Translations under genes and position numbers: made by a program
From: Pseudodesulfovibrio aespoeensis Aspo-2
GTDB lineage: Bacteria; Desulfobacterota; Desulfovibrionia; Desulfovibrionales; Desulfovibrionaceae
Assembly (NCBI RefSeq): GCF_000176915.2
Contig: NC_014844.1
Span: forward strand, 2,728,001-2,792,000
Direction of reading: 5' to 3'
Length of the DNA stretch: 64,000 nucleotides
In this document: positions 16,564 to 36,547 of the stretch, in pieces
Layout: every line of letters begins with the position of its first letter
Numbering within the stretch: position 1 is the stretch's first letter
Notes under the pieces: generated by a model
Seen by the model: only the letters and a program-made list of their open reading frames with translations
Told to the model about the DNA's origin: nothing
The model's database searches: none

Positions 16564-16624
16564 AGAGGTGGCCTCGGTTCTTCGGACCACTGAGCGGCGA
16601 ATATAAGGTGGACAAGTTTACAGG

Positions 16625-17784: not shown

Positions 17785-17851
17785 GTTCAAGCCTCCTTGG
17801 GCTCTTATACGTCCACCTTAACGAGTGGTCCAGTTTTCTGGGGCCACCTCT

Positions 17852-18136
17852 ATCTGCTACTCTTTTTGAGAAACTAAGCTTGTCGGCCCGAGAAAGCTGA
17901 GTAGCTTTAAGTTTAGCATTCCCTAGACTCCCAGACTTCGTAAGGGCAGAAATGTCGTATGCTCCTGTCAGAAGACGAAACATGATATTAATAAGCGTCG
18001 TCTTGCCCAAACCGTTTGCCCCCAATATGAGGGTGAGTCCTGGCTTAAATATTATACATAACCCTTCACCGCTTTTGCCCGGATAAAGACCATAATCTTG
18101 AACAGTGAGCTTCTCGAATACGGGGAAATTGATCAT
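17852..18136 (-). pseudogene. SMC-like ATPase, N-terminal part
   Basis: First 95 codons of the ATPase, from ATG 18136 (MINFPVFEKLTVQDYGLYPG). Contains Walker A ILGANGLGKTTL at about residues 37-48, followed by an FRLLTGAYDIS stretch. The frame then enters the IS at 17851. An upstream extension to 18187 is possible but gives no recognisable residues. The CTCTCT-rich stretch before 18136 reads GAGAGAGAT on the coding strand and can act as the ribosome binding site. Confidence 0.85.
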
Positions 18137-18507
18137 ATCTCTCTCATGGTTCAGATAAGTAAACAACAAGCAAGCATTTTCACACAATCATACTTCCGAA
18201 TACGGCTAATCGATTATAGGCATAAACTCATATTTGACCGTTTTCAAGAGGGGGAGAGGTAATAAAAGGGTTTCAAATGCTACCATCCATTTTTTTAGTT
18301 CTTAAGATGTAGACGTTATGCCGCCTTCCACGGACTTTAAAATCTTGACGATCTGATACTCACTGAATTTTGATTTACGCATGTGAAACTCCTGCTCCTA
18401 GTTTGGGGCAGAAGTCTCTACTTTGCAATGGACCTATTATACGGGCACTTTACACAAACCACCGCCAGCAATCATACCGCTTCTGGTAATCTTATTAGAA
18501 GAATTAA
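18137..18507. other. region between the ATPase gene and the Calvin-cycle block
   Basis: Contains the start region of the ATPase operon, a decayed IS fragment (18321-18454) and the left arm of a decayed Tn7-type hairpin (from 18478). No gene is supported here. Confidence 0.6.
18321..18454 (-). mobile_element. IS3-family (IS407-like) fragment, left end only
   Basis: About 134 bp that align with the first part of the 1239-bp IS (compare 35911-36037): the orfA start region (tactcactgaa, then acgcat) and the terminal CTTTACA are kept, with many substitutions and the rest missing. It is an older relic than the two full copies. Confidence 0.8.
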
Positions 18508-18520
18508 CTAGGAGTGGCTT
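18478..18520 (-). repeat. decayed Tn7-type subterminal hairpin next to cbbY
   Basis: CCGCTTCTGGTAATCTTA ... ACTAGGAGTGGCTT is clearly related to the hairpin at 1009-1056 next to the R end. TnsB sites expected beside it are missing and an IS relic sits there instead. The last codons and stop of cbbY lie inside this repeat. Confidence 0.65.
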
Positions 18521-19281
18521 GAAGAGGTAATGGGATGGACCCGCCCCTTGACAAGATGTCTTGCGGCGGCGTGCCATGCTTCAAAATGGTTTATGGTGAT
18601 CGGTGTCTTTAATCCCTCCAGCGTTGTCAATCCGTGCTTCAGGCAATGAACCAATGCGATCTCCTTTCCGAATTCCTGATAACGTGTATAACCATTAGTC
18701 GTTATGATTGTCGGCACTCCTGCAGTGACAGCAGATTCCATTCCATTCTCGGAGTCTTCAACCGCGATGCAATCCATGGGGTCCAGTTCCAGCCTTCTCA
18801 GAACTTCGAGATAAACGTCTGGAGCAGGCTTCTTGCATGTAACATGTTCTCCTGACACAATAATTTCCCAATGCTCGGATTGCAGTACTCCCGAGGAGAA
18901 TAAGGCTTCAACATTCGACATGGACGTTGTCGTGGCGATGGCAAGACGAATTCCTTTCTCCAGCGCCCTGTTCAAAATCTCTTTCACACCATTGCGAAGA
19001 TGCAGTTTCCCAAGTCGAATGCTCTCATGATAGATTTCTGTTTTTCGAGCATGCATATCCTCGATAGAGGAAGGGAACGATTTCTCCATGCCGGAGAGCT
19101 TGGCGTAATAACGAATCCGTTCCTTGCCGCCAGTCACCTTGAGAAGCTTGCTGTATGCTTTTCGACTCCAGCGACAATCGAGACCATATTCATCAAAAAC
19201 AGTATTGAAAGCTGCCCGGTGCAATTCCTCGCTATCCACAAGGGTTCCATCGACATCCCAGATTATAGCTTCAAGTGACAT
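18508..19281 (-). CDS. cbbY: CbbY-type HAD phosphatase (xylulose-1,5-bisphosphate phosphatase)
   Basis: 257 aa from ATG 19281 (MSLEAIIWDVDGT), with AGGAGGACAC before it. CbbY hydrolyses xylulose-1,5-bisphosphate, a misfire product that inhibits RuBisCO. The HAD motifs are DVDGT near the N terminus, TTTSMS, K in CKKPAPD, and EDSENG. The cap segment LLKVTGGKERI is typical of CbbY. It is the last gene of the fbp-prk-cbbM block and lies behind a strong terminator (19297-19321). The C terminus (about ITSSSHS) is read from a decayed Tn7-type hairpin, so the original end was probably lost. Older names for such proteins are phosphoglycolate-phosphatase-like. Confidence 0.85.
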   Translation of the reverse strand: MSLEAIIWDVDGTLVDSEELHRAAFNTVFDEYGLDCRWSRKAYSKLLKVTGGKERIRYYAKLSGMEKSFPSSIEDMHARKTEIYHESIRLGKLHLRNGVKEILNRALEKGIRLAIATTTSMSNVEALFSSGVLQSEHWEIIVSGEHVTCKKPAPDVYLEVLRRLELDPMDCIAVEDSENGMESAVTAGVPTIITTNGYTRYQEFGKEIALVHCLKHGLTTLEGLKTPITINHFEAWHAAARHLVKGRVHPITSSSHS

Positions 19282-19296
19282 GTGTCCTCCTCCACG

Positions 19297-19321
19297 AAAA
19301 AGGAGGGGCAATTGCCCCTCC
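19297..19321 (-). terminator. intrinsic terminator between cbbM and cbbY
   Basis: Perfect palindrome GGAGGGGCAATTGCCCCTCC (19302-19321) followed on the minus strand by TTTTTCG. It lies 11 bp after the cbbM stop and should cut most transcripts there, giving more RuBisCO than CbbY. Confidence 0.85.
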
Positions 19322-19331
19322 AATATAATCA

Positions 19332-20723
19332 TTACAGGCAAAGCTGGTGGCGCCAAGTCGGGTAGAACCTGTCCGCATCCCCCGGAAAGGATTCGAATGC
19401 CCGGGCCAGTTCATTGTGCTCCTTGGCGTAGTCCAAAAGGTTCACGCCCTGTATCCAAGCGTCATGGGACTGCCTCAGCGAGAGCGCCCCGGCCGTGGGT
19501 CCATCCAAGTGCCCGAAGGCCCCACCACCAGATGTCTGGCAGATGTTTGAATGACCCAAATTATCGAAGAAGCCTGGCAGCCGCAGTGCATTCATCCCAC
19601 CGGAAATCATCGGGGTTGTGGCCTTCATACCATACCATTTCTGCTTGAAGTACGGTCCCTGGGCCTCCTCCCGCTCAATCATGTAGGCCATGCTTTTGTC
19701 AGCCATTTCGCCTTCCATCTTGCCAAAACCCATGGTGCCCGTATGGATGCCCGACGCCCCTTGGAGGCGAGACATCTTACTCAGGACAAAGGCGGTGTAA
19801 CCGCGTTTGGCCTGCGGCGACGTGACTGCGCCGTGACCGGCACGGTGGTAATGCAGGAACTGGTTTGGGAAGTTCCTGCGGGCGGTAGTAATAGCGGTCG
19901 GTCCGGCCACATAGCCATCGACGAGGAAAGCGACCCGACTGGCATTCTCTCCAAAGGCATTGAGGATAAATTCACCGCGGGCAATCATTTCCCTGGGGTC
20001 GTCAGCTGTGATGTTGGCGGAGAAGATCTTGGCTTCTCCAGTCTCGTCCTGAGCACGCCGCATGGCATCAGCAACGGCTGTGATGGTCTCTTTGAGGGGG
20101 GCGAACACCTGGTTACCCTGTGGTTCATCGTTCTTTACGAAGTCGCCCCCCAACCAGAAATGGTAGCAGGCATCAGCAAATGGTTTCGGGCGCAGACCCA
20201 GCTTGGGCTTGACGATGGTGCCGGCGATCATGCCACCGTTCTCGGTGGGACGTCCGAGCATGCGCCAGAAATCAGCGATGTTCTTGGAAGGCCCATCAAA
20301 GAGTTCCAAGTATTGTCGCGGCACATAGAAATCGTGCATTTTGGCGTAGGCAACATCTCCCATGCCCTGGTTGTTTCCTATGCACAATGTCAGAAAGGAG
20401 GCGAGCATGGCGCGGCCATCGATGATGTTACGATCGAAAAGCTCCACAGGATAGGCGATCTTCATCAGAGAGTCGCCGTTGCTGGCGTCACTGACTTCGT
20501 AGACCAGCGCATCGACGCCTTTGGTGAAGTCATCAGTAGTGCAGACCTCGACGTTGGTGCCGGTGGAAGACTCGGCTGCGAAGTGGGCAGCAACCTCGAC
20601 ATTACCGTACCCGTTGGCAGGCTTATAGATATAGGCGCACAGGACGTGATTTCCATCAGCGATCAGCTGGTCTTCCTTGAGATCAAAATTCACGTAGCGG
20701 CTTGTCTGGTCATATGCGGACAT
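19332..20723 (-). CDS. cbbM: ribulose-1,5-bisphosphate carboxylase, form II
   Basis: 463 aa from ATG 20723 ([20 protein letters not shown]). It fixes CO2 onto ribulose-1,5-bisphosphate. The sequence is very like form II CbbM of purple bacteria (for example the [16 protein letters not shown] and [12 protein letters not shown] blocks). The catalytic lysine is K172 (KPKLG) and the carbamylated lysine K197 with metal ligands D199 and E200 (GGDFVKNDE). The loop 6 region ([13 protein letters not shown]) is present. No small subunit gene is needed for form II, and none is seen. It follows prk by 34 bp and precedes a strong terminator. Form II enzymes work best at high CO2 and low O2, which fits an anaerobe. 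Confidence 0.97.
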
Positions 20724-20757
20724 GATTGTCTCCTTTATCAAGGCACTCTCGTGCGTC

Positions 20758-21684
20758 TTATGCGTTCATTTTGGCGTTCATCAGGTGGTAGCAGGTCAAC
20801 AATTGCGTGATGCCAAGGGGATAACTTGTTTTCTCCTCATCGCCTTCGAAGTAGCAGCCGACACCGTCGATAGTCAGGTCGTCACACTTGTCCAGATGGT
20901 CGATGATAATGTCCATGAGCGTTTCCGCGGTCATTTGCTTGATATTGCCGGTGATCTGAAGGATATCAACGGGCAGCCCCTCATCGCGCCCCAGGGTAAA
21001 GGTAAGGCACTTCTCCTTGGTTCCCGGGCGATGGTCGATGAACTCGGCAAAGTCCGGGTGATGAATAGTCGGCCTCAGAATGAGGTTCGTGTTGAGATTG
21101 GTGCCGGTCTCTTCCTCAGCCCCATCCGGGCGGTAGAAGTTGCAGACGATATCAGCAAACTTCCGTTGCGGCCTGATGTAGTTGGTTGAAACGTCGATCC
21201 TCTTGTCGAGGGAAGCCTGCACTTGATCACGGGTATAGCCACGCTTGACCGTATCCCGTTTGAACTTCCAGTCCACCCGAAGTTCCTCGTCGGGATCAAG
21301 GTAGATTTTGACATCAAATGCGTCACGCATCTTTTTGGTGTAGAAACCAAGCAGTCCCTCGACGATGACAAATTCCTTGGGCTCAATGTAAACCGGTGGA
21401 TCGAAGTCACCTGTGTGGTGGTTGTAGACGGGCTTGAGAATTGCCTCCCCACGACGCAGTTGGTAGAAATTATGCTGCATAATGTCGATGTAATTGCAGT
21501 CAGGATGTAGGGCGGAAATGTTTTTTTCAGCCCGTTGCACCCGATTGAACTTATGATAATCGTCCGAACAGATGTTCGTGACCCTATCCGGGCCCAAAAT
21601 CTTCTCGATACCGGCCGAGATGGTGGTTTTCCCGGCGGCTGAATCGCCCACTATACCAAGCAGTATCGGTCTGTTGCGCTGCAT
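20758..21684 (-). CDS. prk: phosphoribulokinase
   Basis: 308 aa. It phosphorylates ribulose-5-phosphate to ribulose-1,5-bisphosphate, the step specific to the Calvin cycle. P-loop GDSAAGKTT at residues 13-21; the catalytic-base region ([10 protein letters not shown]) and EGLLGFY follow. The [13 protein letters not shown] segment is typical of PRK of the bacterial type. AAGGAG lies 6 bp before the ATG. Located between fbp and cbbM in one transcription unit. Confidence 0.96.
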
Positions 21685-21716
21685 GGGATTCTCCTTTTAT
21701 TGCTTAAAATACTGTT

Positions 21717-22706
21717 TTAGTCGTAATCGATGGAACTGATGCGCATGAGCTTATCGAAGCGATGGCTCGATTCGATCTTGCGTACGGTGCCGGTTAGGCC
21801 TCGCATGACCAGCGATGTGGTCTTCGCCCCCTTGCCCGTGAAGTCGACGCCCTTGAGGAAGACTCCATCGGTAATGCCTGTGGCTGCAAAGAAGATGTCA
21901 TCGCTACTTACCAAGTCGTCCATCTTGAGGACCTGTTTGAGATCGCGACCGTCTTCCAGAACTCGCTCCCTTTCCATTTCTGACTGTGGGTCGAGCATGG
22001 CCTGCATCTCACCGCCGAGTACGCGAATTGCGACTGCGGCCAGAACCCCTTCCGGAGTGCCGCCTGTACCCATCATAACGTCTATGCCGGTGTCAGGAAT
22101 CACGGCCATGAGCGCACCGGCCACGTCTCCGTCAGTATGTAGTTGAATACGAGCACCGGCTGTTCGAATGTCGGCAATGAGGTCTTGATGACGTTCCTTG
22201 TCCAGGACGAACACTACGAGGTCTCTGACCTCCTTGTTCAGGGATTGGGCCACCTTTCGGAGCGTGCGCTCCACCGGTTCCTCGATGTCGACCATGCCCG
22301 CTGCTTCAGGCGGGACAACCAGTTTTTTCATGTAGAAGGCTGGCCCCGGGCTGTACATGCTTCCCTCCGGGGTCATGGCCACCACAGAGATGGCATTGGG
22401 ACGTCCATGGGCGAGAAGGCGTGTGCCCTCGACTGGATCAACGGCAATGTCCATTCGAGGGCCCACGCCTGAACCAACTGATTCTCCATTATAGAGCATG
22501 GGGGCTTCATCCTTTTCCCCTTCGCCGATGACAACCCGCCCATTGATGGCCATGGCGTTGAAACTGATGCGCATAGCATCAACGGCGGCGCCATCCCCAT
22601 CTTCCTTGTTCCCGAGTCCAAGCCAACGTGCCGAGGCAAGCGCGGCGGCTTCAGTAACACGTGCAAGGTCCAGGGCAAGATTTCTGTCCGGCTGTCTTCT
22701 AGTCAT
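21717..22706 (-). CDS. glpX: class II fructose-1,6-/sedoheptulose-1,7-bisphosphatase (GlpX type)
   Basis: 329 aa from ATG 22706 (MTRRQPDRNLALDL). GlpX-type enzymes remove the 1-phosphate of fructose-1,6-bisphosphate and in several autotrophs also of sedoheptulose-1,7-bisphosphate, which would supply both phosphatase steps of the cycle. Metal- and substrate-binding motifs: GEGEKDEAPML, DPVEGT, GTGGTPEGVLAA. First gene of the fbp-prk-cbbM-cbbY unit, behind a sigma-54 promoter match at 22864-22879. No other FBPase is seen in the window. Confidence 0.94.
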   Translation of the reverse strand: MTRRQPDRNLALDLARVTEAAALASARWLGLGNKEDGDGAAVDAMRISFNAMAINGRVVIGEGEKDEAPMLYNGESVGSGVGPRMDIAVDPVEGTRLLAHGRPNAISVVAMTPEGSMYSPGPAFYMKKLVVPPEAAGMVDIEEPVERTLRKVAQSLNKEVRDLVVFVLDKERHQDLIADIRTAGARIQLHTDGDVAGALMAVIPDTGIDVMMGTGGTPEGVLAAVAIRVLGGEMQAMLDPQSEMERERVLEDGRDLKQVLKMDDLVSSDDIFFAATGITDGVFLKGVDFTGKGAKTTSLVMRGLTGTVRKIESSHRFDKLMRISSIDYD

Positions 22707-22863
22707 ATTTGTTTTCTCCCACAAAGGTTGTTCTTCTTACTGTTTTGAAAGAGAGACAAGGGATGGTGAATTGCGGTCACTTGATTGATTGCAGTCAATT
22801 CCCTTGCCTCTCCCTCGGAGAGGTTTTCGGCCTGCGATGTGGCCGTATCCATGACCTTGTAAT

Positions 22864-22879
22864 TACAACTCCCGTGCCA
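22864..22879 (-). promoter_or_regulatory. sigma-54 promoter before glpX-prk-cbbM
   Basis: On the minus strand TGGCAC-GGGAG-TTGTA, close to the TGGCAC-N5-TTGCW consensus with exact spacing. It lies about 160 bp upstream of the glpX start. A sigma-54 activator gene lies just upstream. Confidence 0.75.
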
Positions 22880-22951
22880 CATGGAACAAATCGCATTATA
22901 ATACGAATAAGTGCATTATTATGGAGTGTTATGGCACAATCGTTTTGTGAT

Positions 22952-23025
22952 CATGGCGTCACCATGTGCCGTGGAAGTCTCAATAGGGTGAGCTGTCAGT
23001 TGGTAAGTGTGCCGCGCATGGCACA
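22952..23025. promoter_or_regulatory. candidate activator-binding palindromes upstream of the sigma-54 promoter
   Basis: CATGG-CGTCA-CCATG (22952-22966) and TGTGCC-GCGCAT-GGCACA (23008-23025) are inverted repeats 75-160 bp upstream of the -24 element, the normal distance for enhancer sites. A further GGCACA half-site occurs at 22932. The larger palindrome touches the end of the PHP gene. Confidence 0.5.
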
Positions 23026-23027
23026 AG

Positions 23028-23927
23028 TCACTGAAATACAGAACCGAAAAGATCCGCTTCCTGTGAGGTGATACCATACTCTCCGGGGAGCATCGGGCGA
23101 AGACCATCAAACGGGCTGACCGGATATTTGCAATCCGAGCCACCGGAAAAGAGTATCTCGACGTTCTTGGTCAGTGACAGTGTCCTGGCCTGCAGCACTT
23201 CATTGCTTTCAGTGCCGAAATACCCATTCTCCCTATAGGGATAGACAACCTCCACCGCATCAAGGTCCGCCGCGACCAGTTTTGCCATGAGGGGCTGCTG
23301 CCTCTCGAGGGGAGTCATCATCGGGTGAGCCCATATGGCGATGCCACCTGCTCTGTGAATCAAGTCGACGACCTCGACAGGATGAAATGGGTCAGCCAGA
23401 GACATATCCCGATCGAGATTCTCATCGGCAATGAATTGCAGTGCGTTTAGCAGGGATGGGAACATCCGGCGTTCCTGAACCAGGTATTGCAGGACAAATG
23501 TCGGATGTGGGGCCTTACCGGCAAAAGCCGCGACCCTCTCCAGGTTGACGGTGGAATCCCAGACATGGAGACGGTCGACAAACAGCGAGACGATCTCATC
23601 CATCTGCTTTTTTATGAGAGCAAAGTGCTTTTCTAGGGCCTTCCGTTGCGTATAGGAAAAGTCCATACCGAAACCTATGATTTGGGAGTCTTTGCATGAA
23701 AATTCGATGCCCAGCGCCAGCCGCAGGCGAAGTTTCGCCGCGTGTGCATAGAGCGTCTCGTCCGGGAAGGCGTCCTGCTCACAAATCCCGATGCCCTGCA
23801 AGCCGTTCTGCTTGGCCAGACTCAGCAGCAATCTGCCAGGTATCTTACTCTCCCTTGAGCGGTCCGAGTGCGTGTGCATATCATAGTGCACTGATTGTCG
23901 TGTCGTTCGAGAAAACATGCCATTCAC
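23028..23927 (-). CDS. PHP-domain metal-dependent phosphoesterase
   Basis: 299 aa. The N-terminal HTHSDRS motif and later EQD, EFSC, WAHP and GGSDCK motifs are those of the PHP family (histidine/aspartate metal ligands), near the YciV/RNase AM type. The substrate is unknown. The start is GTG 23927 or ATG 23918, directly after the stop of the sigma-54 activator, so the two are co-translated. A role in clearing a sugar bisphosphate or nucleotide by-product, or in signalling to the activator, is only a guess from the position. Confidence 0.8.
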   Translation of the reverse strand: MNGMFSRTTRQSVHYDMHTHSDRSRESKIPGRLLLSLAKQNGLQGIGICEQDAFPDETLYAHAAKLRLRLALGIEFSCKDSQIIGFGMDFSYTQRKALEKHFALIKKQMDEIVSLFVDRLHVWDSTVNLERVAAFAGKAPHPTFVLQYLVQERRMFPSLLNALQFIADENLDRDMSLADPFHPVEVVDLIHRAGGIAIWAHPMMTPLERQQPLMAKLVAADLDAVEVVYPYRENGYFGTESNEVLQARTLSLTKNVEILFSGGSDCKYPVSPFDGLRPMLPGEYGITSQEADLFGSVFQ

Positions 23928-25301
23928 TTAAATCCCGTATTTATTCATCTTTCTATAGAAAGTGCGACGAGGAACCCCCGAGATCCTAGACGCCTCACTT
24001 ACATTTCCTCCAGCCTTGTCGAGAAAACGCATGAGCTCCTTTTTCTCGAAGTTCTCCATGACCTGATCCTTCTTGGACTGGAAGACGTCTCCTGTATCAG
24101 AAGGTGGAGGAACTGACTTGCCAATGGGACAACTGAAAGCACTTGAACCATCGATGCGTAAGGCCAGATCTTCAGGCCTGATGACATCATCCTTACACAA
24201 GATAGCGGCCCGTTCGATGACGTTTTCAAGTTCCCTGACGTTGCCCGGCCAATCGTACCGACTCATGCATTCCATTGCATCATCAGTTATACCGCACAAC
24301 TTCTTGTTCAGCTTTGCTTCGGCCTTGGTGATGAGGTGATAGACCAGATACGGGATATCCATCATCCGTTCACGAAGCGGAGGGATTTCGATGGTGAACG
24401 TATTGAATCTGTAGAAGAGATCACGACGGAAGGTCTCGTTGTTCATGGCATATTCAAGATCTCTGTTTGTGGCTGCAATGACTCTTACATCAACGATCTT
24501 TATCTCGGTACTGCCGACAGGACGGATCTCGCCTGTCTGAAGGAAACGCAGCAGTTTGGCCTGAAGCTCTGGCAACATATCCCCGATTTCATCCAGGAAA
24601 AGAGTCCCGCCGTCCGCTTCCTCGAACAATCCCTTGCGATCGCTCTCGGCTCCGGTAAAGGCACCCTTCTTGTATCCAAAGAGTTCACTTTCCATGAGCG
24701 AAGAGGTCAGTGCCGTACAGTTGATAGATATATACGGCCGACTTTTCAGATGGCTTTGCTGATGAATGGCTCGGGCGATCAGGTCCTTCCCCACGCCCGT
24801 CTCACCGAGGAGAAGGACGGTTGTCGGGGTCGGTCCAACCCGTTCGATGAGATCAGATATTTCATACATCTGAGGGGACTTGCCGATGATGATGGTCTCC
24901 CCACCTGTTCGCTGATCGATTTCCCGCTTGGCAGCGCGATAACGATCTCGAAACCTGGCTTCCTTGCGTATGGATACCGTCAGGAGACGGACGAGCCTGG
25001 CGGCAGCCTTTTCCAGAATTATGACGTGTTCAGCCTTGTACATCCTGATATGTTCAGTGACAGCCTCATTGCGTGAGGCGTTGACGATGACATCCAGATT
25101 GCGAGCATTGCCAAAGGAAGGTAACGCGTTGACCAAGGGGATGCCGATGTCTTTTGCGAGCGCTATGCTCGACGGATCTGCCTGCATATCCAGCAGACAG
25201 ACAATCTCGACACCGTGCACATCCTTGACCGCCTTCATGAACGGGGCACATGTCTTCCCCGAACCTGCAACCAGGACCTGTATCTTGGTGTCTTTCCACA
25301 T
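23928..25301 (-). CDS. sigma-54-dependent activator with N-terminal Rossmann-like domain
   Basis: 457 aa from ATG 25301 (MWKDTKIQVLVAG, GGAGGG before it). Residues about 5-105 look like a dinucleotide-binding fold (VLVAGSGKT, then VEIVCLLDM and LDVIVNAS), not a response-regulator receiver. The AAA+ domain has Walker A GETGVGKD (166-173), the sigma-54 contact loop GAFTGA (213-218) and Walker B GGTLFLDEIGD (231-241). A Fis-type helix-turn-helix (GNVSEASRISGVPRRTFYRK) closes the protein. It lies inside the Calvin-cycle cluster, between two sigma-54 promoter matches, and is the likely regulator in place of CbbR. Sensing of NAD(P)(H) or another nucleotide is inferred only from the fold. Confidence 0.9.
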   Translation of the reverse strand: MWKDTKIQVLVAGSGKTCAPFMKAVKDVHGVEIVCLLDMQADPSSIALAKDIGIPLVNALPSFGNARNLDVIVNASRNEAVTEHIRMYKAEHVIILEKAAARLVRLLTVSIRKEARFRDRYRAAKREIDQRTGGETIIIGKSPQMYEISDLIERVGPTPTTVLLLGETGVGKDLIARAIHQQSHLKSRPYISINCTALTSSLMESELFGYKKGAFTGAESDRKGLFEEADGGTLFLDEIGDMLPELQAKLLRFLQTGEIRPVGSTEIKIVDVRVIAATNRDLEYAMNNETFRRDLFYRFNTFTIEIPPLRERMMDIPYLVYHLITKAEAKLNKKLCGITDDAMECMSRYDWPGNVRELENVIERAAILCKDDVIRPEDLALRIDGSSAFSCPIGKSVPPPSDTGDVFQSKKDQVMENFEKKELMRFLDKAGGNVSEASRISGVPRRTFYRKMNKYGI

Positions 25302-25377
25302 ATTCCCTCCGCCGAATGGCGGGTCTTGAAGGGACCGCGCCAACGCCGAATGTTCGGGAATGCGGTACCTCGGTTTT

Positions 25378-26376
25378 CTATAGAGTTGCTCCTACCTTGC
25401 GAATGAGACGGAGAAGCTGGTTGGTGAAACTCGATTCATTGTCGTACCAGATGATGCACTTGACCATTCTGGAGGACATCACGGACGTACATAGACCATC
25501 AACAACACCGCCGTAGGTCGACCCAATGTAATCGGTGGATACGAGCGGCAGTTCGGTATAGCCCATGACATTCAGGAGCGCCCCTTCCGACGCCGACTTA
25601 AACGCCGCGTTGACGTCGGCGACAGAGACATCACGACCGACATTGGCCACGAAATCCACCAGCGATACATTGGGCGTAGGCACTCGGACAGCCATGCCGT
25701 CCAGCTTGCCTTCGAGTTCTGGAATGACCTGTGTCACGGCGCGCGCCGCCCCGGTGGTCGTCGGCAGCATATTGACTGCTCCGGCTCTGGCCCGACGCAA
25801 ATCCTTGTGTGTCCCGTCCAGAATACGCTGGCTCATCGTATATGAATGGATGGTGGTCATGAGCCCGTGCTCAATGCCGAAAGTCTCGTGAAGGATCTTG
25901 GCCACTGGGGCCAGACAGTTGGTCGTGCAGGATGCGTTTGAAATGATAGTATCTGATAATTTAAGTTGGTGGTCGTTGACGCCCATGACGATGGTCGCGT
26001 CACAATCAGAACTAGGTGCACTGACAATGACCTTATGACAACCACAGTCGATCATCTGTTCACAGCTGAGACGATCACGGAAAGCTCCGGTGCTTTCGAT
26101 AACGATGTCGACATCCCAGGCTCCCCAGCTCCATTCGCCGGGTTTGTCGCGCGTGACGACAACCTGATGACCATTGATGGTGAATCCGTTTTCATTAGCT
26201 TCCACATCTTCGGCAAAGCGGCCGTGGACGGAATCGTACTTGAGCAGATGCGCCAATTGCGCATTGTCGGCCCGGGCATTGACCACAACGAGTTCATACC
26301 CGTCTTCATTGACAAGAAGTCTGGCAAGATAACGCCCGATGCGTCCGAATCCATTGATGCCTATCCTGATGCTCAT
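25378..26376 (-). CDS. gap: glyceraldehyde-3-phosphate dehydrogenase, type I
   Basis: 332 aa from ATG 26376 (MSIRIGINGFGRIGR), with GGGAG before it. It reduces 1,3-bisphosphoglycerate to glyceraldehyde-3-phosphate in the Calvin direction. NAD(P)-binding GINGFGRIGR at the N terminus and the active-site SNASCTTNC are intact. It stands 190 bp after rpe, with a palindrome in between, and precedes the activator gene. The residue after the second beta strand (VVNARAD) differs from the D of strictly NAD-dependent enzymes, so NADP use is possible. Confidence 0.95.
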   Translation of the reverse strand: MSIRIGINGFGRIGRYLARLLVNEDGYELVVVNARADNAQLAHLLKYDSVHGRFAEDVEANENGFTINGHQVVVTRDKPGEWSWGAWDVDIVIESTGAFRDRLSCEQMIDCGCHKVIVSAPSSDCDATIVMGVNDHQLKLSDTIISNASCTTNCLAPVAKILHETFGIEHGLMTTIHSYTMSQRILDGTHKDLRRARAGAVNMLPTTTGAARAVTQVIPELEGKLDGMAVRVPTPNVSLVDFVANVGRDVSVADVNAAFKSASEGALLNVMGYTELPLVSTDYIGSTYGGVVDGLCTSVMSSRMVKCIIWYDNESSFTNQLLRLIRKVGATL

Positions 26377-26422
26377 GTTGGTCTCCCTGGCAGCAATCAC
26401 CGCCATCGCTTTGCCCGTATTG

Positions 26423-26439
26423 GATGAACATAGTTCATC
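26423..26439. promoter_or_regulatory. palindrome upstream of gap
   Basis: GATGAAC-ATA-GTTCATC, a perfect 7-bp inverted repeat with 3-bp spacer, 47 bp before the gap start in the 219-bp gap between rpe and gap. It may be an operator. An AT-rich stretch (26510-26545) further upstream could hold a promoter. Confidence 0.45.
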
Positions 26440-26595
26440 AGGGCTTTTTTCAGATCGAATACTCTTTCAATGGCATTTCCCGCTGGGTAGACGGTTTGAC
26501 CCCATCTCTAAAAAAATATAAATCTAGTTTATATCAATTTATTCCAGTAACTTAATCGTTGTCTTCGGGTGTATCATCTCTTTCCGGACCAGTAG

Positions 26596-27354
26596 CTACC
26601 GCTCATCTCCTGATTTTCCCCGTTCACTTTGAATTGCGCCCCATCCGCACGTTGCCGTGGAGGTGTTTCCTGCCTTCGAAGACGGTGAGCAGGCCGCTGC
26701 CATGAATGTTTTGAGTCTCTCATCGTATGGAGGATGGCCAAAGAACGCTGAGCCTGAGACAAAGACATCAGCCCCTGCCTGATGCAGTTCGGCAACATTA
26801 TCAGGAGTGACACCTCCATCCACCTGAATCAGGGTGTCTGCCCCGGTCAGCTTGATCATGTGAGAAAGGCCCCTGATCTTATCAATGGAAAAGGGGATGA
26901 ACGACTGGCCTCCGAATCCGGGGTTCACGCTCATAATCAGAACCATATAGAGCTGCGGAAGCAGATGTTGGACGACGCTCAGCGGCGTATGCGGATTGAT
27001 AGCAACGGCCGGTCGTGCGCCAAGCCTAGCGATCTCGGCCACGGTCCGCTCAAGATGGATTTCGGATTCGGCGTGCACGCAAATAAGATCGGCTCCGGCA
27101 TCGACAAATTCCTGGATATATCGACCGGGTTTATCGATCATCAGGTGGACATCGAAGAAGAGATTGCTCACCTTGCGACAACGACCGATAACTGGTGGCC
27201 CGAAGGTGATGTTGGGGACGAAGTTTCCGTCCATGACATCCCAGTGAACCCATTCTACTCCTGCCTGTTCAAGCGAGGAGAGCTCCTCGGCCAGCCGACT
27301 GAAATCAGACGACAAAAGAGATGGAGATATAATGACTGTGTTCAGATTACTCAT
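26596..27354 (-). CDS. rpe: ribulose-phosphate 3-epimerase
   Basis: 252 aa from ATG 27354 (MSNLNTVIISPSLL), GAGGAG before it. Interconverts xylulose-5-phosphate and ribulose-5-phosphate in the regeneration phase. TIM-barrel residues: SLLSSDF, HWDVMDGNFVPNITFGP, HLMI, MSVNPGFGGQ, QVDGGV. The C-terminal ~30 residues (after MAAA) are low-complexity and not typical of the family, so the end may have been altered. 10 bp separate it from the aldolase gene. Confidence 0.95.
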   Translation of the reverse strand: MSNLNTVIISPSLLSSDFSRLAEELSSLEQAGVEWVHWDVMDGNFVPNITFGPPVIGRCRKVSNLFFDVHLMIDKPGRYIQEFVDAGADLICVHAESEIHLERTVAEIARLGARPAVAINPHTPLSVVQHLLPQLYMVLIMSVNPGFGGQSFIPFSIDKIRGLSHMIKLTGADTLIQVDGGVTPDNVAELHQAGADVFVSGSAFFGHPPYDERLKTFMAAACSPSSKAGNTSTATCGWGAIQSERGKSGDER

Positions 27355-27363
27355 GATCACTCC

Positions 27364-28437
27364 TCATTGTTGGGTATTGGCAAGCGGAGCATAGGCGCCT
27401 TTGGCATAGCCAGCAGCCATGCCTTCATGTGTGGATGGCTTGATGGAGTGTGCCCAACCGGCCGATCCGAAGGCCAGAAAGCGTGAGCGGCAGACCTCTT
27501 TCATGGCTTTGGTTGCCTCGGTCAGGAACTTGCGGGGATCGAAGTTACCGGGATTCTCCACCAAGTGTTTGCGAACCGCACCTGTGGCGGCAAGACGCAA
27601 GTCGGTATCGATGTTGACCTTGCGAACACCGTGCTTGATCCCCTCTTGAATCTCGGTCACGGGAACACCGTAAGTCTGTCCGAGGTCTCCGCCGTATTCG
27701 TTTATGATCTTGAGCCATTCCTGGGGAACGGAAGACGAGCCATGCATGACCAGATGGGTGTCTGGTATGCGGGCATGGATCTCCTTGACGCGGTCAATGG
27801 AGAGAACCTCGCCTGACGGCGGAGAAGAAAACTTGTATGCGCCATGGCTGGTGCCGATAGCGATGGCTAGGGCGTCCACATGGGTTTTTGCTACAAAGTC
27901 GGCGGCTTGATCTGGGTCGGTCAACATCTGTTCACGACTGAGCTTCCCCTCGGCTCCCACGCCGTCTTCCTTTCCGGCAGTCGCTGTTTCCAAAGAGCCC
28001 AACACGCCGAGTTCGCCCTCAACAGAGACACCGCAGGCATGAGCCATGTCAGCGACCTTTCTCGTTACAGCGACATTATACTCATAGCTCGACGGCGTGC
28101 TTGAATCTTCCATAAGGGATCCATCCATCATGACGGAGCTGAACCCGTTCTGAATGGCCTGAACGCATAAACCCGGCGAAGCACCATGATCAAGATGTAG
28201 GCAGACAGGAGTGGAGGGCCACTCCTCGATTGCTGCTTGGATGAGGTGACGAAGAAAGGTCGACCCTGCGTATTTTCTGGCTCCTGCAGAGCTTTGCAGG
28301 ATGACCGGGCTGTCTGTTTCAACCGCTGCCTCCATAATTGCCCGGATTTGTTCCATGTTGTTGACGTTGAATGCGGGCACGCCGTAGCCGTTTGTCGCGG
28401 CGTGGTCCAAAAGTTGTCTCAAAGAAATAAGAGCCAT
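27364..28437 (-). CDS. fba: class II fructose-bisphosphate aldolase
   Basis: 357 aa from ATG 28437 ([13 protein letters not shown]), with GGAGGATACTCCC upstream. Joins triose phosphates to fructose-1,6-bisphosphate, and can make sedoheptulose-1,7-bisphosphate. Zn ligands are visible in CLHLDHGAS and EGELGVLG, and in the GTSHGAYKF and HGSSSVP stretches; NIDTDLRLA marks the phosphate site. It is the CbbA-type subgroup (about 350 aa). An upstream extension to 28527 overlaps pyk and is unlikely. Confidence 0.95.
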
Positions 28438-28456
28438 GGGAGTATCCTCCTGTTGG

Positions 28457-29902
28457 TTACCGTGTGTATTTTTCGACTCTACAGATGCGCATGGAGTTTG
28501 TTCCACCACGCTCTCCGGCAGTGTCACCGCTTGTTGTAATCACGAGATCACCGGGCTTGACCACGCCGAGCCTGACCAGTTCAGCCGCAGCAGCTTCATG
28601 CTGCTGTGATGCGCAGACCGAGGCCGGGTTGAAATTGATTGGATACACTCCCCGGTACAGCGAGACCCTACGACGGGTTTGTTCATTTTGGGACAGGGCA
28701 AAAATTGGAATGCCTGAACTGATCCTGGACATCCAAAGCGGCGTCCCGCCCGATTCGGTGAAGGCTCCGATGGCCACAGTCTCAGTATGATTGGCCGCAT
28801 ACATGGCCGACATGGCGACGGTCTCGTCAACATGAGTAAATTCCATGTCCACCCTGTGTCGCGAATGTCTTACCTGTTCCTGTTTCTCCGCTTCAAGGCA
28901 GATGACGTCCATTGCCGCAACCACTTCTACCGGATATTTACCAACAGCCGTCTCTGCCGACAGCATGACACCGTCAGTGCCGTCCAGGACGGCATTGGCT
29001 ACATCGAACACCTCGGCCCGTGTGGGTATAGGATTGGTAATCATCGAGTCCATCATCTGCGTGGCGGTGATAACCACGCGATTGAGGCTTCGGGCTCGCT
29101 TGATGAGCATCTTTTGTACGGCGGGCAATTTGGCATCGCCGATTTCCACACCAAGGTCGCCGCGGGCCACCATGATTCCGTCAGAAACCATAATGATCGT
29201 TTCGATGTATTCCAGTGCTTCGGCCCTTTCGATCTTGGCAAGAATTGAGCCGTGCCAACCAAGCCCTGCGAGAATATCCCTGGCTTCGTCTACATCGGCT
29301 GCGTTGCGAACAAAGGAAAGTGCAAGATAATCGGCCTGCATGGTCGCCACAGCCGTCATGTCCTCCCGGTCCTTATCCGTGAGCGCCCCGGCAGAAAGAC
29401 CGCCGGACAGCACGTTGACGCCTTTGCCACCGGATAGGACGCCGCCTGTGATTACAATGCAACGGACTTGGTTGCCGAGGATATCGTCAACTTCGAGGAT
29501 GCATTTGCCGTCATCAAGAAGAAGGATCGTGCCAGATGATACATCCTCGGCCAGCGATGGGTACGTTATGCCGACCCTATTCGAAGTGCCGTTCTGTACG
29601 GCAACAGAGGGATCAATGATGAATGATTGACCTTCTTTTAAAACGACAGAACCGGATTCAAATCCTCGAATCCTGATCTTTGGCCCCTGCAGGTCGGCCA
29701 ATACGCCAACGGTTCGGTTCAACTCGGACGCCAGTTCACGAACTCGAACAGCCATTTGGATATGATCCTGCGCAGTGCCATGAGAAAAATTGAGCCTGAC
29801 AACATCGACGCCAGCCTGGATCAGATTGCGCAGGGTTGCCCTATCAGAAGTTGCCGGTCCAAGGGTTGCCACGATTTTGGTACGTCGAAGAGTATTTTTC
29901 AT
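28457..29902 (-). CDS. pyk: pyruvate kinase
   Basis: 481 aa. Converts phosphoenolpyruvate and ADP to pyruvate and ATP. Typical motifs: [11 protein letters not shown] at the N terminus, [17 protein letters not shown], the active site [26 protein letters not shown] and [11 protein letters not shown]-terminal alternating domain is present. It lies between pgk and fba with short gaps. A pyruvate kinase in a Calvin-cycle cluster is known from some chemolithotrophs (for example a cbb operon of Acidithiobacillus) and would draw fixed carbon to pyruvate. Confidence 0.96.
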
Positions 29903-29907
29903 AATAT

Positions 29908-31080
29908 TTATTGATGAGCCCGTGTTTCAAGTATGCTCACAGCCGGAAGTGTCTTCCCTTCCAAAAATTCAAGAAAGGCTCCGCCACCCGTGGAGATATA
30001 TGTTATCATTTCGGATACGTTATACTTTTCTATAGCGGCAAGGGTATCGCCACCTCCGGCAATGGAAAAAGCCGGGCTTTCGGCTATGGACAGCGAAAGA
30101 TTTCTTGTCCCCTGTCCAAACTGGTCAAATTCGAACACGCCTACAGGTCCGTTCCAGACAATGGTCCCGGCTTCTTCAAGAATTCTGGAGTAGAGAGAAG
30201 AGGTCATCGGGCCAATATCGAGGATCATTTCGTTGGCAGCAACGCGGTTGACGGAACGGAGAATCGGAGTCGCAGTCTGCGAAAACTCCCTTGCGCAGAC
30301 GACATCAAGGGGGATCGGAATCTCAACACCGAGCATCTCGGCTTCATCCATCAGCTCCCGTGTGGCCTGAACCAAGTCCTGTTCAAAGAGTGACGAGCAG
30401 ACATCAAACCCTGCAGCGGCGATGAAGTTGTTGGCGATACCGCCGCCGACGATGAGTTTATCCACCATAGGGAGTAGTGATTTGAGGACCGTAAGTTTTG
30501 TCGAGACTTTTGATCCGCCCACAACGGCCACGATCGGGGCCTCTGGATTCTCAAGACCCTGTTTCAATGCCTTCAGCTCCTGCACGAGAAGCGGACCGGC
30601 GCAAGCCTGTGGCGCGTATTGTGCTACAGCATATGTGGACGCCTGAGCCCGGTGGGCCGTTCCGAATGCGTCCATGACAAACACATCGCACAAGGAAGCC
30701 ATGGCTCTGCCAAGTTCATGGTCGTTCGACATCTCCCCCGGAAGGAAACGGACATTTTCGACCATGATGACTTCGCCCGGATGCGGTTCGAGCCCGTGGG
30801 CCCAATCACGCTCGAACCTGACAGGAATACCAAGGAGTTCAGACAACCGGTCTGCGACGGGTTCAAGAGACAATCTCATTTCGAAAACACCAGACGTGGG
30901 TCTCCCAAGATGAGACATGAGTATCACCATAGCCCCGCGATTGAGTGCCGTGCGAATTGACGGCAGGGCAGCACGTAGTCGCTTGTCACTTGTGATAATC
31001 CCATTGTTGATGGGGACATTGAAGTCTTCCCGCATCAGCACTCGTTTTCCCATGAGATCGAGTTCGGTCATTTTCAGCAT
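29908..31080 (-). CDS. pgk: phosphoglycerate kinase
   Basis: 390 aa. Phosphorylates 3-phosphoglycerate, the product of RuBisCO. N-terminal [28 protein letters not shown], the [11 protein letters not shown] hinge and C-terminal GGGDTLAAI and [13 protein letters not shown] are the standard PGK motifs. It is followed 5 bp later by pyk and lies 32 bp after tkt. Confidence 0.96.
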
Positions 31081-31112
31081 TGTCTTCCCCTATTACGATT
31101 CACAAGATCACA

Positions 31113-33128
31113 TCAGGCAGCCATACTTGTTTTTTCCATCACCTGTTCAACCAGCGCCATCACGTTGTCGGGCGTAAAGCCGAAGTAGTCGAAGAGCTCA
31201 TTGCCCGGAGCGGATTCGCCGAAACGATCAATTCCCATGACAGCTCCGTTCAGGCCTACATAGCGATACCAACCAAGGGTGGTTCCGGCCTCAATCGCGA
31301 CACGGGCCGTGACACGCGGCGGCAGGACAGCGCGGCGGTAGGCCTGATCCTGCCGATCAAAGGCTTCGACGCAAGGTATAGAAACGACACGGACCTGCGT
31401 CCCCTTGGACTCCAGGGTCATGGCAGCCTCCACGGCCAACCCTACCTCGGAACCGGTCGCTATAAGAATAGCATCCGGGGTCCCGTCGCAATCCCGTAAG
31501 ACATAGCCACCCCGTGAAATCTGGTCCATGGTCTCTGTTGACCTTGATTGGTACGGGAGATTCTGTCGGGACATGACCAGTGTGGATGGTCCGTCACCTC
31601 GTGTGACAGCTTGCTCCCATGCCACGGCAGTTTCGACGCTGTCACAGGGGCGCCACACGTCCATGTTGGGGATGAGCCGCAGGGAGGCGACATGCTCGAC
31701 CGGTTGGTGGGTCGGCCCATCCTCACCAACACCGATGGAATCATGGGTCATCACGTAGAGGACCTTCAGTCCCATCAATGCAGACATGCGCATGGCGTTT
31801 CGCGCATAATCGGAAAATACGAGGAATGTGCCGCCATACGGGATGAAACCGCCGTGCAGGGACATACCGTTCATCATCACGGACATAGCGAATTCACGGA
31901 CACCGTAGTTCATGTAGTTGCCATCCCACTCAGCAGAGGAAGCCGTCTTAGAGCCGGACCATCGAGTCAGGTTCGACCCAGCCAGATCTGCCGACCCTCC
32001 GAAGAATTCAGGAAGGACCGGCGCAAGACCTTCAATGGCATTCTGTGAGGACTTGCGGGTAGCCAGACTCTCAGCTTTGACATCGACGGAATCGATAAAA
32101 TTGGATGTATGAGATGCAAAATCTTCAGGCAGCGTTCCCGTCATGCGACGAGTAAACTCGGTCGCCAGATGCGGGTAGGCCTTTTCATACTCCTTAAAGC
32201 GAGCGTTCCAACTGTCTTCGGCCATGAATCCATTCCCCTTTGCGCTCCATCTGGAATAGATCATCTTCGGAATTTCAAAAGGAGGATGGGGCCAATCCAT
32301 GTTCTCGCGTGCACAGGCTATTTCATCATTCCCGAGGGGGGAACCGTGACATTTCTCGGAGCCGCAGATATTGGGCGCGCCCTGTCCGATGACAGTCTTG
32401 CAGCAGATCAGGCTTGGCTTGTCCTTATTTGCTCTGGCCTCTTCAATGGCCGCCTTGATGGATGAGGCATCATGTCCATCGACGTCACGGACGACATGCC
32501 ATCCATAGGCTTCAAACCGTCCGGGAGTATCATCGGTGAACCAACCGTCAACACAGCCGTCGATGGAGATACCGTTGTCGTCGTAAAAAGCGAAAAGCTT
32601 GCCCAGCTTCAGCGTCCCAGCCAGAGAGCAGGCTTCATGGGAGACGCCTTCCATCATGCACCCATCCCCCATGAAGACATAGGTGTGGTGATCCATGATG
32701 GAGTGTCCGTCCCTGTTGAACTGGGCCGCAAACACTTTTTCCGCCACAGCCATGCCTACGGCACACGCAATGCCTTGTCCGAGCGGACCGGAAGTGGACT
32801 CCACGCCGGGTGTCATCCCATATTCAGGGTGTCCCGGCGTCCTGGAGTGGAGTTGTCTAAAGTTCTTGATATCGTCGATGGTGACGTCATACCCACTCAG
32901 ATGAAGCAGCGAGTAAAGCAGCATCGACCCGTGGCCATTGGATAAAACAAAGCGATCACGATTGGCCCAGTCGGGGTTGGCAGGATTGTGGACCATGTAA
33001 TCGTTCCAGAGCACTTCGGCGATGTCGGCCATGCCCATGGGAGCGCCGGGATGTCCGGATTTGGCCTTCTGGATGGCGTCCATGCTCAGGGCGCGAATGG
33101 CGTTTGCAAGTTCCTTACGTTTCGGCAT
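31113..33128 (-). CDS. tkt: transketolase
   Basis: 671 aa from ATG 33128 (GGGAGG before it). Moves two-carbon units in the regeneration phase of the Calvin cycle. Thiamine diphosphate site: [14 protein letters not shown]...YDDNGIS; substrate residues in [11 protein letters not shown] and the C-terminal [19 protein letters not shown] block. Length is typical of bacterial TktA. It begins the central block of enzyme genes after the small ORF at 33159. Confidence 0.97.
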
Positions 33129-33158
33129 GGTGCCTCCCTTCGATGTTTTCGTTAACAG

Positions 33159-33290
33159 TTAGAGAATCCAGGAGTAGATCCGCTCATACATTCCGCACAG
33201 ATTCCTGGCGGTGGCGTTGGGCATTCCGCAACTTTTCATGCGGCAATAGATGTGCAACGGATTCAAGTAGTGACGTAACGTCTCTTTCAT
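33159..33290 (-). CDS. small protein (43 aa), hypothetical
   Basis: ATG 33290 is preceded by GGGAGGTCATC, a strong ribosome binding site. The product starts MKETLRHYLNPLHIYC and continues with Cys- and Arg-containing helices to YERIYSWIL. It recalls small uncharacterised Desulfovibrio proteins with an LNPLH(V/I)YCR motif, which I give only as an impression. It lies between the flavoprotein and tkt, in the same direction. Confidence 0.55.
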   Translation of the reverse strand: MKETLRHYLNPLHIYCRMKSCGMPNATARNLCGMYERIYSWIL

Positions 33291-33503
33291 GATGACCTCC
33301 CGGTTCTATGCTTGACACCGGGACTACATCAAAAGACGTGCCGCAAGAGACCCCACGAAGGATCACTGCTTTTAGTTTAGTTATTGCGTGTGGTTAATAG
33401 TGGGAAATGAGTCTAAGAAAAAAGATCAGACTGTGCCAGACCTGACCCAAAAACAGTGAAGATGTGTGCGTACTGGGCCGGGAGTGGCACAGCTATCGGG
33501 GAA

Positions 33504-34721
33504 TTATTTGGAGAAGAAATTGATGTACGACAGGAAATCGTCCAGATCTGTAGAGGGTAAGGCAGATCCAAGAAGAACACCGGATATCCATCCGGCATTG
33601 TGCGGACGGCGAGACGCACTACGGATCAAACTGCCAATGGCCTTAGGGGTTCTCAAACCCAGAAGACGTCCACCCATTTCAAGTGAAGGTCCGATCTCCT
33701 TCCATAAATAATATGGGTATTCACGTAAGGCAGCCTCATCCCAGCTCTCGCCCTTACAGGTTTTGGCAAGGACTTCTCCGGCGATTCGAGCAGAGATGAT
33801 GGCATTGGTTGTTCCGTCAGAACTACATGGATTGACCAGCCCGGCGGCATCACCTACGAGAATAAAACCGTTTCCATGAATCTCCCGTATGGGATTCCCC
33901 ACCGGCAAGACACCCGCTTCAATCTCACCCATCTGTTCCGCAAAGGCGAACCGTTCCTTCAATTCGGGAGAGGCCAGCGCACGCTTGAGCGCTTGCTTGG
34001 GCTTGATATTGGTGTCCTTGACTACATCCATGGGAATGGTCAACCCGACATTGGTCTGACTCGTTTCTGTGGGATGGAACCAGACGTAACCAGGAAGCAC
34101 TTCTTCCGGAAAATGGACTTCAATGTTGCCCCGTATGCCAAGCACTTGGCGAAAATAACCACGGACAGCCAGGGCGCGATACTCAGGGTATCTGGGCATG
34201 TTCATCTGCCTTGCCACGAGGGAATCACTGCCGTCGGCACCGACCACGACCTTGGCGGTCCAGGACACTCCGCGACCGCCACCACGTTCACCCTTCACTC
34301 CGTATGCTTGCCCGCCTTTGACCAGCACTTCAGTTATCCGGCACCAGTCGACGACCTCAACTTCCTCTTCGGCCGCAATTTCCATCAAGAGAGCGTCGAG
34401 GAGAATCCTCCGGCAGATGATGCCCGCCTCTGATGCGGTGTCATCAATCTTGAGAATCGGCACTGTAACGGAACTAGTATCGGCTCCGTGGTAAGTAATT
34501 TTCTGAACAGGGGTATGGGGAATTTCTAGGAGGCGAGGCAAAAGCCCCAGAGAGTTTAATTCTGCGATTGCCAGGGAGGACAAGGCGTCACCGCAAGTTT
34601 TTTCCCGCGGAAATTTCTTTTGATCGAGCAGCAAAACGTGCAATCCTTGTCGGGCTGCATGGATCGCCGTACATGTCCCCGCAGGCCCTGCTCCGACCAC
34701 TATTACGTCATAATCCGACAT
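33504..34721 (-). CDS. geranylgeranyl-reductase-family FAD-dependent oxidoreductase
   Basis: 405 aa from ATG 34721 (MSDYDVIVVGAGPAG, AGGGAG before it). FAD-binding GAGPAG at the N terminus, CGDALS, and the second flavin motif GDAAGLVNPCSSDGT mark the geranylgeranyl reductase / digeranylgeranylglycerophospholipid reductase group of flavoproteins. The substrate is unknown; many bacterial members act on isoprenoid or quinone-like double bonds. It is the first gene after a sigma-54 promoter match (34763-34778) and leads into tkt-pgk-pyk-fba-rpe-gap, so it is expressed with the carbon-fixation genes. A link to CO2 fixation is not known. Confidence 0.85.
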   Translation of the reverse strand: MSDYDVIVVGAGPAGTCTAIHAARQGLHVLLLDQKKFPREKTCGDALSSLAIAELNSLGLLPRLLEIPHTPVQKITYHGADTSSVTVPILKIDDTASEAGIICRRILLDALLMEIAAEEEVEVVDWCRITEVLVKGGQAYGVKGERGGGRGVSWTAKVVVGADGSDSLVARQMNMPRYPEYRALAVRGYFRQVLGIRGNIEVHFPEEVLPGYVWFHPTETSQTNVGLTIPMDVVKDTNIKPKQALKRALASPELKERFAFAEQMGEIEAGVLPVGNPIREIHGNGFILVGDAAGLVNPCSSDGTTNAIISARIAGEVLAKTCKGESWDEAALREYPYYLWKEIGPSLEMGGRLLGLRTPKAIGSLIRSASRRPHNAGWISGVLLGSALPSTDLDDFLSYINFFSK

Positions 34722-34762
34722 GAAAAACTCCCTTGATGAGTCTGAAGCATCATGTATACTTT

Positions 34763-34778
34763 CACAACTCACGAGCCA
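34763..34778 (-). promoter_or_regulatory. sigma-54 promoter before the flavoprotein-tkt-pgk operon
   Basis: On the minus strand TGGCTC-GTGAG-TTGTG, with the same spacing as the match before glpX (TGGCAC-GGGAG-TTGTA). It places the transcription start roughly 30 bp before the flavoprotein start. An IS is inserted at 34799, about 20 bp upstream of the -24 element. Confidence 0.65.
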
Positions 34779-36371: not shown

Positions 36372-36392
36372 GAGGTGTCCCCTTAATTCCGT

Positions 36393-36542: not shown

Positions 36543-36547
36543 CAGCA

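Follow-up and report, generated by a model that had tools for sequence, protein, structure and literature searches.

The Calvin-cycle gene cluster

The window analysed here, 64,000 nucleotides of Pseudodesulfovibrio aespoeensis Aspo-2 (contig NC_014844.1, positions 2,728,001 to 2,792,000), holds a cluster of genes for the Calvin-Benson-Bassham pathway that is real and lies between Tn7-like end features on both sides. Its 13 open reading frames (ORFs) all lie on the minus strand between positions 18508 and 34721, and every one is open. All the Calvin-cycle genes named in the initial annotation of this DNA were found there, together and on one strand as it had described. Below, G numbers denote the genomes of the class Desulfovibrionia that were compared (G000 is the window's own genome) and L numbers denote fetched loci. 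The features of the cluster are as follows.

18508–19356, minus strand: cbbY-like HAD phosphatase
19332–20741, minus strand: cbbM, form II RuBisCO (profile model and solved-structure alignment)
20758–21684, minus strand: prk, phosphoribulokinase (PRK)
21717–22724, minus strand: glpX, class II fructose bisphosphatase
22864–22879, minus strand: predicted sigma-54 type promoter TGGCACGGGAGTTGTA, upstream of glpX-prk-cbbM-cbbY
23028–23927, minus strand: PHP-domain protein (weak match)
23928–25343, minus strand: NifA/NtrC-type sigma-54 activator
25378–33128, minus strand: gap, rpe, fba, pyk, pgk and tkt
33504–34721, minus strand: flavin adenine dinucleotide (FAD) oxidoreductase of the geranylgeranyl-reductase family, start codon at 34721

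The assignment of CbbM to form II, made in the initial annotation, was borne out: model NF010002 scored the protein at 846 bits against a cut-off of 489, and residues 11–467 align to the solved form II enzyme 7t1j with the 10-residue motif intact. PRK aligned to a solved cyanobacterial PRK with an E value of 8.5e-95. It had also been claimed that the set lacks only enzymes which the host would supply, and triose-phosphate isomerase (TPI) and RpiB are indeed encoded elsewhere on the host chromosome; therefore, with RuBisCO, PRK and the regeneration enzymes in the cluster and these two in the host, the pathway set is complete on paper. A second transketolase, 48% identical to that of the cluster, is encoded elsewhere on the host chromosome as well. 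The CdhC/AcsB model (PF03598) found no match in the host genome, and the same model matches 2 of 14 control genomes.

A homologue of the cluster's FAD oxidoreductase accompanies the Calvin cluster in 7 of the 10 other genomes compared, G293 and G303 among them, and the PHP-domain protein accompanies the cluster in G293 and G303. The PHP gene and the sigma-54 activator were absent from the initial annotation, as were the nested element and the hairpin remnant (18477–18520) described below.

The sigma-54 motif TGGCACG-N4-TTGTA stands upstream of glpX in all four close clusters holding the region (G000, G293, G261 and G303), and a TGGCATG variant lies near cluster genes in G224, G219 and G217. 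Counts of the motif within the window were not above chance, and the site was accepted through its conservation, not through the window count. The activator gene within the cluster, together with this conserved site, suggests that the cluster may be a self-regulated block with its own sigma-54 activator and promoter.

To our knowledge, CO2 fixation in this sulfate-reducer lineage is not usually put down to RuBisCO, and the initial annotation had treated a Calvin cycle in Desulfovibrio-type bacteria as unexpected. That expectation needs tempering for the kin of this species. Wu et al. (2017) inferred Calvin-cycle CO2 fixation for a metagenome-assembled genome (MAG) nearest D. aespoeensis (PMC5364579), and Bell et al. 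(2018) reported RuBisCO and PRK in what they call the proteome of a Pseudodesulfovibrio MAG with an incomplete Wood-Ljungdahl pathway (PMC6137086). These MAGs belong to the same species or near kin and have the same pathway; in contrast to our locus, the passages of those reports that treat it give neither genomic context nor mobility. The Aspo-2 genome paper, which gives the G+C content as 62.6%, does not mention RuBisCO (PMC4038888).

The cluster is probably functional, judging from its sequence. That it is instead a decaying relic with no function is an idea encouraged by its setting, an island rich in insertion sequence (IS) copies and with a broken tnsD, and we regard it as very improbable: no cluster ORF is closed, CbbM aligns motif and all to a solved enzyme, the sigma-54 site is kept in all close clusters holding the region, and RuBisCO and PRK are reported in the MAG proteome of Bell et al. 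(2018, PMC6137086).

Tn7-like ends, tns genes and nested insertions beside the glmS-like gene

The cluster shares its island with transposition genes of Tn7 type, and the features that bear on its edges are these.

13–954, plus strand: 3' part of a glmS-like gene, which is the island's target gene and stands ahead of Tn7-like right ends in congeners too
961–1055, plus strand: right end, which has TGTGGGCG as its terminus, two TnsB sites (969 and 989) and a hairpin at 1012–1055
1034–5600, plus strand: tnsA, tnsB and tnsC (Pfam)
5605–8359, plus strand: tnsD, split by an IS3 copy into a TniQ half (5605–6306) and a TnsD C-terminal half (7583–8359)
8347–9957, plus strand: tnsE (PF18623)
18321–18454, minus strand: remnant of an IS3 relative at the joint, 85–88% identical to the other copies
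18477–18520, plus strand: right-end hairpin remnant overlapping the end of cbbY (pattern search)
34799–36037, minus strand: IS3 copy with CCTG duplications
36074–47972: nested Tn7-like element, right end at 36074 and left end at 47972, with exact CCTAT duplications on both sides
48010–48155, minus strand: outer left end, TnsB sites at 48010, 48063 and 48130, site type GAGAAC

The stop codon of cbbY falls within a 44-base copy of the hairpin found just inside the right ends of the island's Tn7-like family. The two-part hairpin pattern has two matches in the window and none in 100 shuffles; it was found in 15 of 269 fetched loci, three of which overlap the window while 12 had been fetched around or beside tnsB or glmS-like matches. 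At the opposite edge, the start codon of the FAD oxidoreductase is 141 bp from the innermost left-end site once the IS3 copy and the nested element are discounted; counted in the same way, hairpin and left terminus are 16,532 bp apart. A putative cbb element running from 18477 to 48155 would have its left end, complete with TnsB sites, at 48010–48155.

TnsB residues 1–692 of 695 match Tn7 TnsB (7pik) with an E value of 1.1e-214. The initial annotation had placed a full tnsABCDE set within the ends. Of that set tnsA, tnsB, tnsC and tnsE are uninterrupted ORFs, which gives the TnsA/TnsB/TnsC core, but tnsD is split by the IS3 copy at 6286–7524 (4-bp CACC duplications); in the six relatives read, tnsD is one open frame of 501–509 amino acids. 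The right end begins six bases past the stop of the glmS-like gene. Models of glmS match that gene partially, at 60–64 bits and below their cut-off, and congeners use the same insertion site. At the 961 right end and the 48155 left end the TnsB sites are inverted and of one type, GAGAAC. The window contains 13 TnsB-type sites, whereas 20 shuffles gave 0.30 on average and never more than 2; the site matrix was derived from relatives' ends, one of which shares its site sequence with the window's.

Set beside Tn7 itself (TnsABCDE, glmS attTn7), the window is alike in a TnsB that aligns over nearly its full length, in the possession of TnsA, TnsC, TniQ/TnsD and TnsE, in insertion after a glmS-like gene, and in termini of the TGT...ACA form, whose TnsB sites are spaced out at the left end and close together at the right. 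It is unlike Tn7 in its interrupted tnsD, its nested array, its outer ends without a duplication and its metabolic pathway as cargo. The Tn7 terminus lies about 25 bp past the glmS stop, whereas in the window's family it lies 4–7 bp past the stop, where found.

The nested element at 36074–47972 has a right and a left end with a 5-bp duplication, carries the two-partner secretion genes tpsA/tpsB and IS copies, and had no tns gene among the ORFs scanned. Its TnsB sites are of a different type from those of the outer ends. Elements without tns genes, this one for example, seem to exist in the island's Tn7-like family. It sits inside another Tn7-like element and not at glmS. Directly upstream of its tpsB-like gene is a cyclic di-GMP-I riboswitch (46782–46857; 59.3 bits against a gathering score of 59), so that its cargo is perhaps a surface adhesin under cyclic di-GMP control.

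The glmS-like gene is a recurrent site of such elements. TnsB matches (E ≤ 1e-30) occur in 20 of the 348 genomes of the class, the window's included. We took 32 glmS-like 3' ends, the window's among them, leaving out second copies and several contig-end sites; G298 was unparsed, and in G293 the stop was read inside the element's end. A TnsB-type site lies at most 120 bases past the stop in 20 of the 31 sites parsed (window included), a count that is a description and not a test, because the site matrix was built from relatives' own ends. G280 and G300 show a terminus without a TnsB-type site at the glmS-like end. Where both ends were readable, judged by eye, the glmS-proximal duplication is exact in four of six relatives (G284, ACGGC; G295, GTTGC; G314, AAAAT; G294, CTTTT) and inexact in G291 and G310. 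Tandem head-to-tail Tn7-like elements, about 5 bp apart, stand at the glmS-like 3' ends of G294, G291, G310 and G295.

We lean somewhat towards the view that the cluster is cargo of the Tn7-like family at the glmS-like gene, a cbb element without tns genes having merged with a tns-bearing one. On this view the family would insert repeatedly just after the glmS-like gene in Pseudodesulfovibrio. The cluster would have arrived in an element of about 16.5 kb that lacked tns genes and was mobilised in trans, consisting of a right end, the genes from cbbY to the FAD oxidoreductase, and the left end at 48155. This element would then have merged with a neighbour that bears tns genes, has its right end at 961 and no longer possesses a left end of its own; the right-end TnsB sites of the cbb element would have been lost on merging, leaving the hairpin alone. 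Two later insertions, of an IS3 copy and of a second Tn7-like element, would have come to lie between the cluster and its left end.

The initial annotation had instead seen one TnsABCDE transposon, and the region from 961 to 48155 could be a single autonomous element carrying tnsABCDE and the cluster, with the 18477 hairpin as the leftover of a lost nested element. The shared GAGAAC type of the outer sites and the uninterrupted tnsA, tnsB, tnsC and tnsE agree with this. However, the ends at 961 and 48155, while they do enclose the cluster and bear TnsB sites, are not one clean matched pair: the five bases before 961 are TCTGG and those after 48155 are ACCCG, so a single clean insertion is not shown, though duplications are exact in most of the relatives readable at both ends. 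If a right end once adjoined 48155 on its outer side and was lost, that could account for the absence of a duplication. Taken as one element, 961–48155 also has no intact TniQ/TnsD target selector, a hairpin remnant stands exactly at the cluster edge, and G+C per kb differs between the cluster part (0.507–0.566 at 19001–35000) and the tns part (0.418–0.536 at 1001–18000). With its nested array as well, we think the single transposon quite unlikely.

The rest of the island and its right flank hold further mobile DNA.

10600–18187: other cargo, comprising type II methyltransferase-like, PDDEXK-like, SMC/LmuB-like and AAA-type ORFs and two IS3 copies
51020–51117: further array junction, where ATGTT separates a left end (to 51046) from a right end with hairpin (from 51052)

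Padloc matches among the other cargo are weak, save for a methyltransferase. Its two IS3-family copies are identical, 1,295 nt long and inverted, with 513 nt between them (14752–17854). Past the outer left end, an autotransporter gene is followed at 51020–51580 by the left/right junction and a degenerate left end, which represent more members of the array. The DNA at about 52618–53004 matches that downstream of the glmS site in G284, G292, G311, G310, G291, G286, G287 and G294 at 72–79% identity (in G294 over 246 bp only), so the island's right flank appears ancestral. The gene mnmE (window 53429–54838 and beyond) is opposite to glmS here, but the two genes point the same way in 15 of 18 congeners, counted by eye where both are on one contig; part of the chromosome has probably been inverted, with a breakpoint a little past the island. 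Inversion mediated by the identical IS3 copies at 6286 and 34799 was ruled out, each having its own 4-bp duplication.

The cluster in other genomes

CbbM is present in 12 of the 348 genomes of the class, the window's included, the matches in G302 and G026 being partial. The nearest kin tested, G290 and G280 (RpoB 94.2 and 94.6%), gave no CbbM match. The comparison of cbb trees with a species tree that the initial annotation had proposed reveals a conflict. In an RpoB tree, for which 14 of the 16 genomes asked for gave a usable row, the eight Pseudodesulfovibrio rows are united with support of 100/100. A tree of nine cluster proteins from 11 genomes (G026 left out; column fill 34% in G302, 45% in G224 and 43% in G219) places G261, which belongs to another genus, inside Pseudodesulfovibrio next to G302 (99/99), and 0 of 200 bootstrap trees unite Pseudodesulfovibrio. 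Compared with the window's genome, G261 has 75.6% identity in RpoB versus 77.0% for G224, and 91% in CbbM versus 83% for G224. The conflict between the cluster tree and RpoB thus makes transfer of the cluster between genera, and so its horizontal movement, well supported by the sequences; the vehicle is not shown by the trees.

The CbbM tree has 86 rows from 87 sources, one falling under the length limit, and G302 and G026 are not included. In it, the ten Desulfovibrionia and Desulforamulus putei form one clade (100/99). D. putei (L016) is a sulfate reducer of the Bacillota, and the position of its form II CbbM within the Desulfovibrionia clade suggests that the gene has passed between sulfate reducers of different phyla. 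On the 9.2-kb contig of D. putei, tns queries had no match.

Within Pseudodesulfovibrio, Tn7-like ends stand beside the cluster in three of four genomes, the window included. In G303 a left-type end faces the FAD-oxidoreductase side, with its terminus at about 4449 and sites at 4456, 4521 and 4576 of L227; site spacing is 65/55 versus 67/53 in the window. Between this end and the FAD oxidoreductase, 3.2 kb away, lie an IS1595-family transposase gene and a P63C-domain gene. The signs that bear on a place of the G303 cluster at the glmS island are mixed: the glmS-like gene of G303 carries another right end, a gene found downstream of the array in several relatives lies on the same contig as the G303 end but 60 kb from it, and the kinase gene beside that end is far from glmS in G282. 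The G302 cluster has a terminus, ending CTCCCACA, 195 bp past the cbbY stop. The gene L226:4252-5535, HD-GYP-like by eye, lies 2.8 kb beyond this terminus, and its orthologues are 2–7 kb downstream of glmS in G287, G286, G310, G311 and G292, so the G302 cluster is probably also in a glmS island. A counter-sign to this placing is that the orthologues in G282, G293 and G298 are far from glmS; the G302 draft gave no glmS-like match.

Several observations weigh against carriage of the cluster by Tn7-like ends. At the 18477 remnant the site scan found no TnsB site, so the right end of the cbb element amounts to its hairpin, and no duplication flanks the outer ends. For G302 and G303 the genomes are drafts, and each end is seen on one side only. 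The G302 terminus scores as a single site whose left or right type is not certain, its cluster is oriented relative to the outer end in the opposite way to the window's, with cbbY next to the terminus, and its row in the cluster tree is the sparsest of those given above. In G303 a degenerate right end with a tnsA fragment adjoins, facing away from the cluster. In G293 the cluster lies about 230 kb from that genome's own glmS-site element, between IS1595 copies, with no TnsB-site match in the 60 kb scanned. Outside the genus no convincing Tn7-like ends were seen in the DNA scanned from eight genomes of the class: G261 has one site match in 60 kb, inside glpX, and G224, G219, G217, G030, G199, G197 and G026 have none in the 16–40 kb scanned.

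Such observations would fit a cluster brought into the glmS island through homologous recombination or capture by IS copies, with the Tn7-like ends as bystanders of a hot spot. That account gains from the IS3 remnant at the cbbY-side joint, and the second degenerate end adjoining that of G303 keeps it standing. Both cluster edges, however, lie no more than about 150 bp from end features once the two later insertions are discounted, and ends occur beside the cluster in G302 and G303 too. We judge bystander ends unlikely. Movement by the ends, which we favour, is argued because of these edge positions and the one-sided ends in two draft genomes.

Other routes were considered. A composite IS1595 transposon in G293 was ruled out by eye: the right copy is flanked by an 8-bp duplication of its own, TAAATCTA, while the flanks of the left copy match neither each other nor those of the right copy. 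Carriage on Desulfovibrio-type plasmids found no support: among plasmid records, 347 match CbbM, and none of the 15 listed is from a sulfate reducer; the best match is from Cereibacter, at 78% identity (PRK was not searched). In the loci compared, a shared chromosomal place of the cluster between genera was not seen. A 45% identical protein lies near both the G261 and the G217 clusters, and the clusters of G030 and G026, which belong to a single genus, have a neighbour in common. The window's Tns proteins had no match (1e-5) in 80 named cbbM loci with flanks of up to 10 kb.

A carbon-fixation pathway as possible transposon cargo

The initial annotation had taken Tn7 cargo to be mostly resistance and defence. 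That view needs widening, since central-carbon-metabolism genes are known in general as cargo of Tn7-like elements, with few complete pathways among them (Benler et al. 2021, PMC8649781). No word in the main text of that paper begins with 'ribulose' or 'desulfo', and, unlike the elements it describes there, the window has a near-complete Calvin set with its own regulator. In the open-licence literature, subscription papers not being covered, our searches met no account of Tn7-like elements that carry Calvin-cycle genes. Thus the Calvin genes of the species' kin were already known, and their linkage to Tn7 was not found in print.

The block would supply RuBisCO, PRK, most regeneration enzymes and a sigma-54 activator with its promoter, with TPI and RpiB coming from the host. 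Its probable use is to fix CO2 with H2 as the driving force, or to balance redox, in a sulfate reducer whose genome has no acetyl-CoA synthase match. As for movement as one payload, which the initial annotation had proposed, the trees support transfer between genera and ends lie beside the cluster in two of the three other congeners, but the payload itself is our inference. We offer only tentatively, as a possibility we hold in some doubt, that a self-regulated 13-gene Calvin cassette moves between sulfate reducers on Tn7-like elements that lack tns genes and insert beside glmS, perhaps at other places as well, and that it makes hydrogenotrophs without acetyl-CoA synthase potential Calvin-cycle autotrophs in one step.

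If this is true, a nearly complete central pathway would be a transposon payload, and the patchy occurrence of RuBisCO among these sulfate reducers would be partly explained. The Tn7-like hot spot at glmS would be tied to primary metabolism rather than defence, and in a cultured deep-biosphere strain the gain of autotrophy through a single insertion would be open to test. The cluster of this deep-groundwater sulfate reducer suggests that a whole carbon-fixation pathway can travel as transposon cargo.

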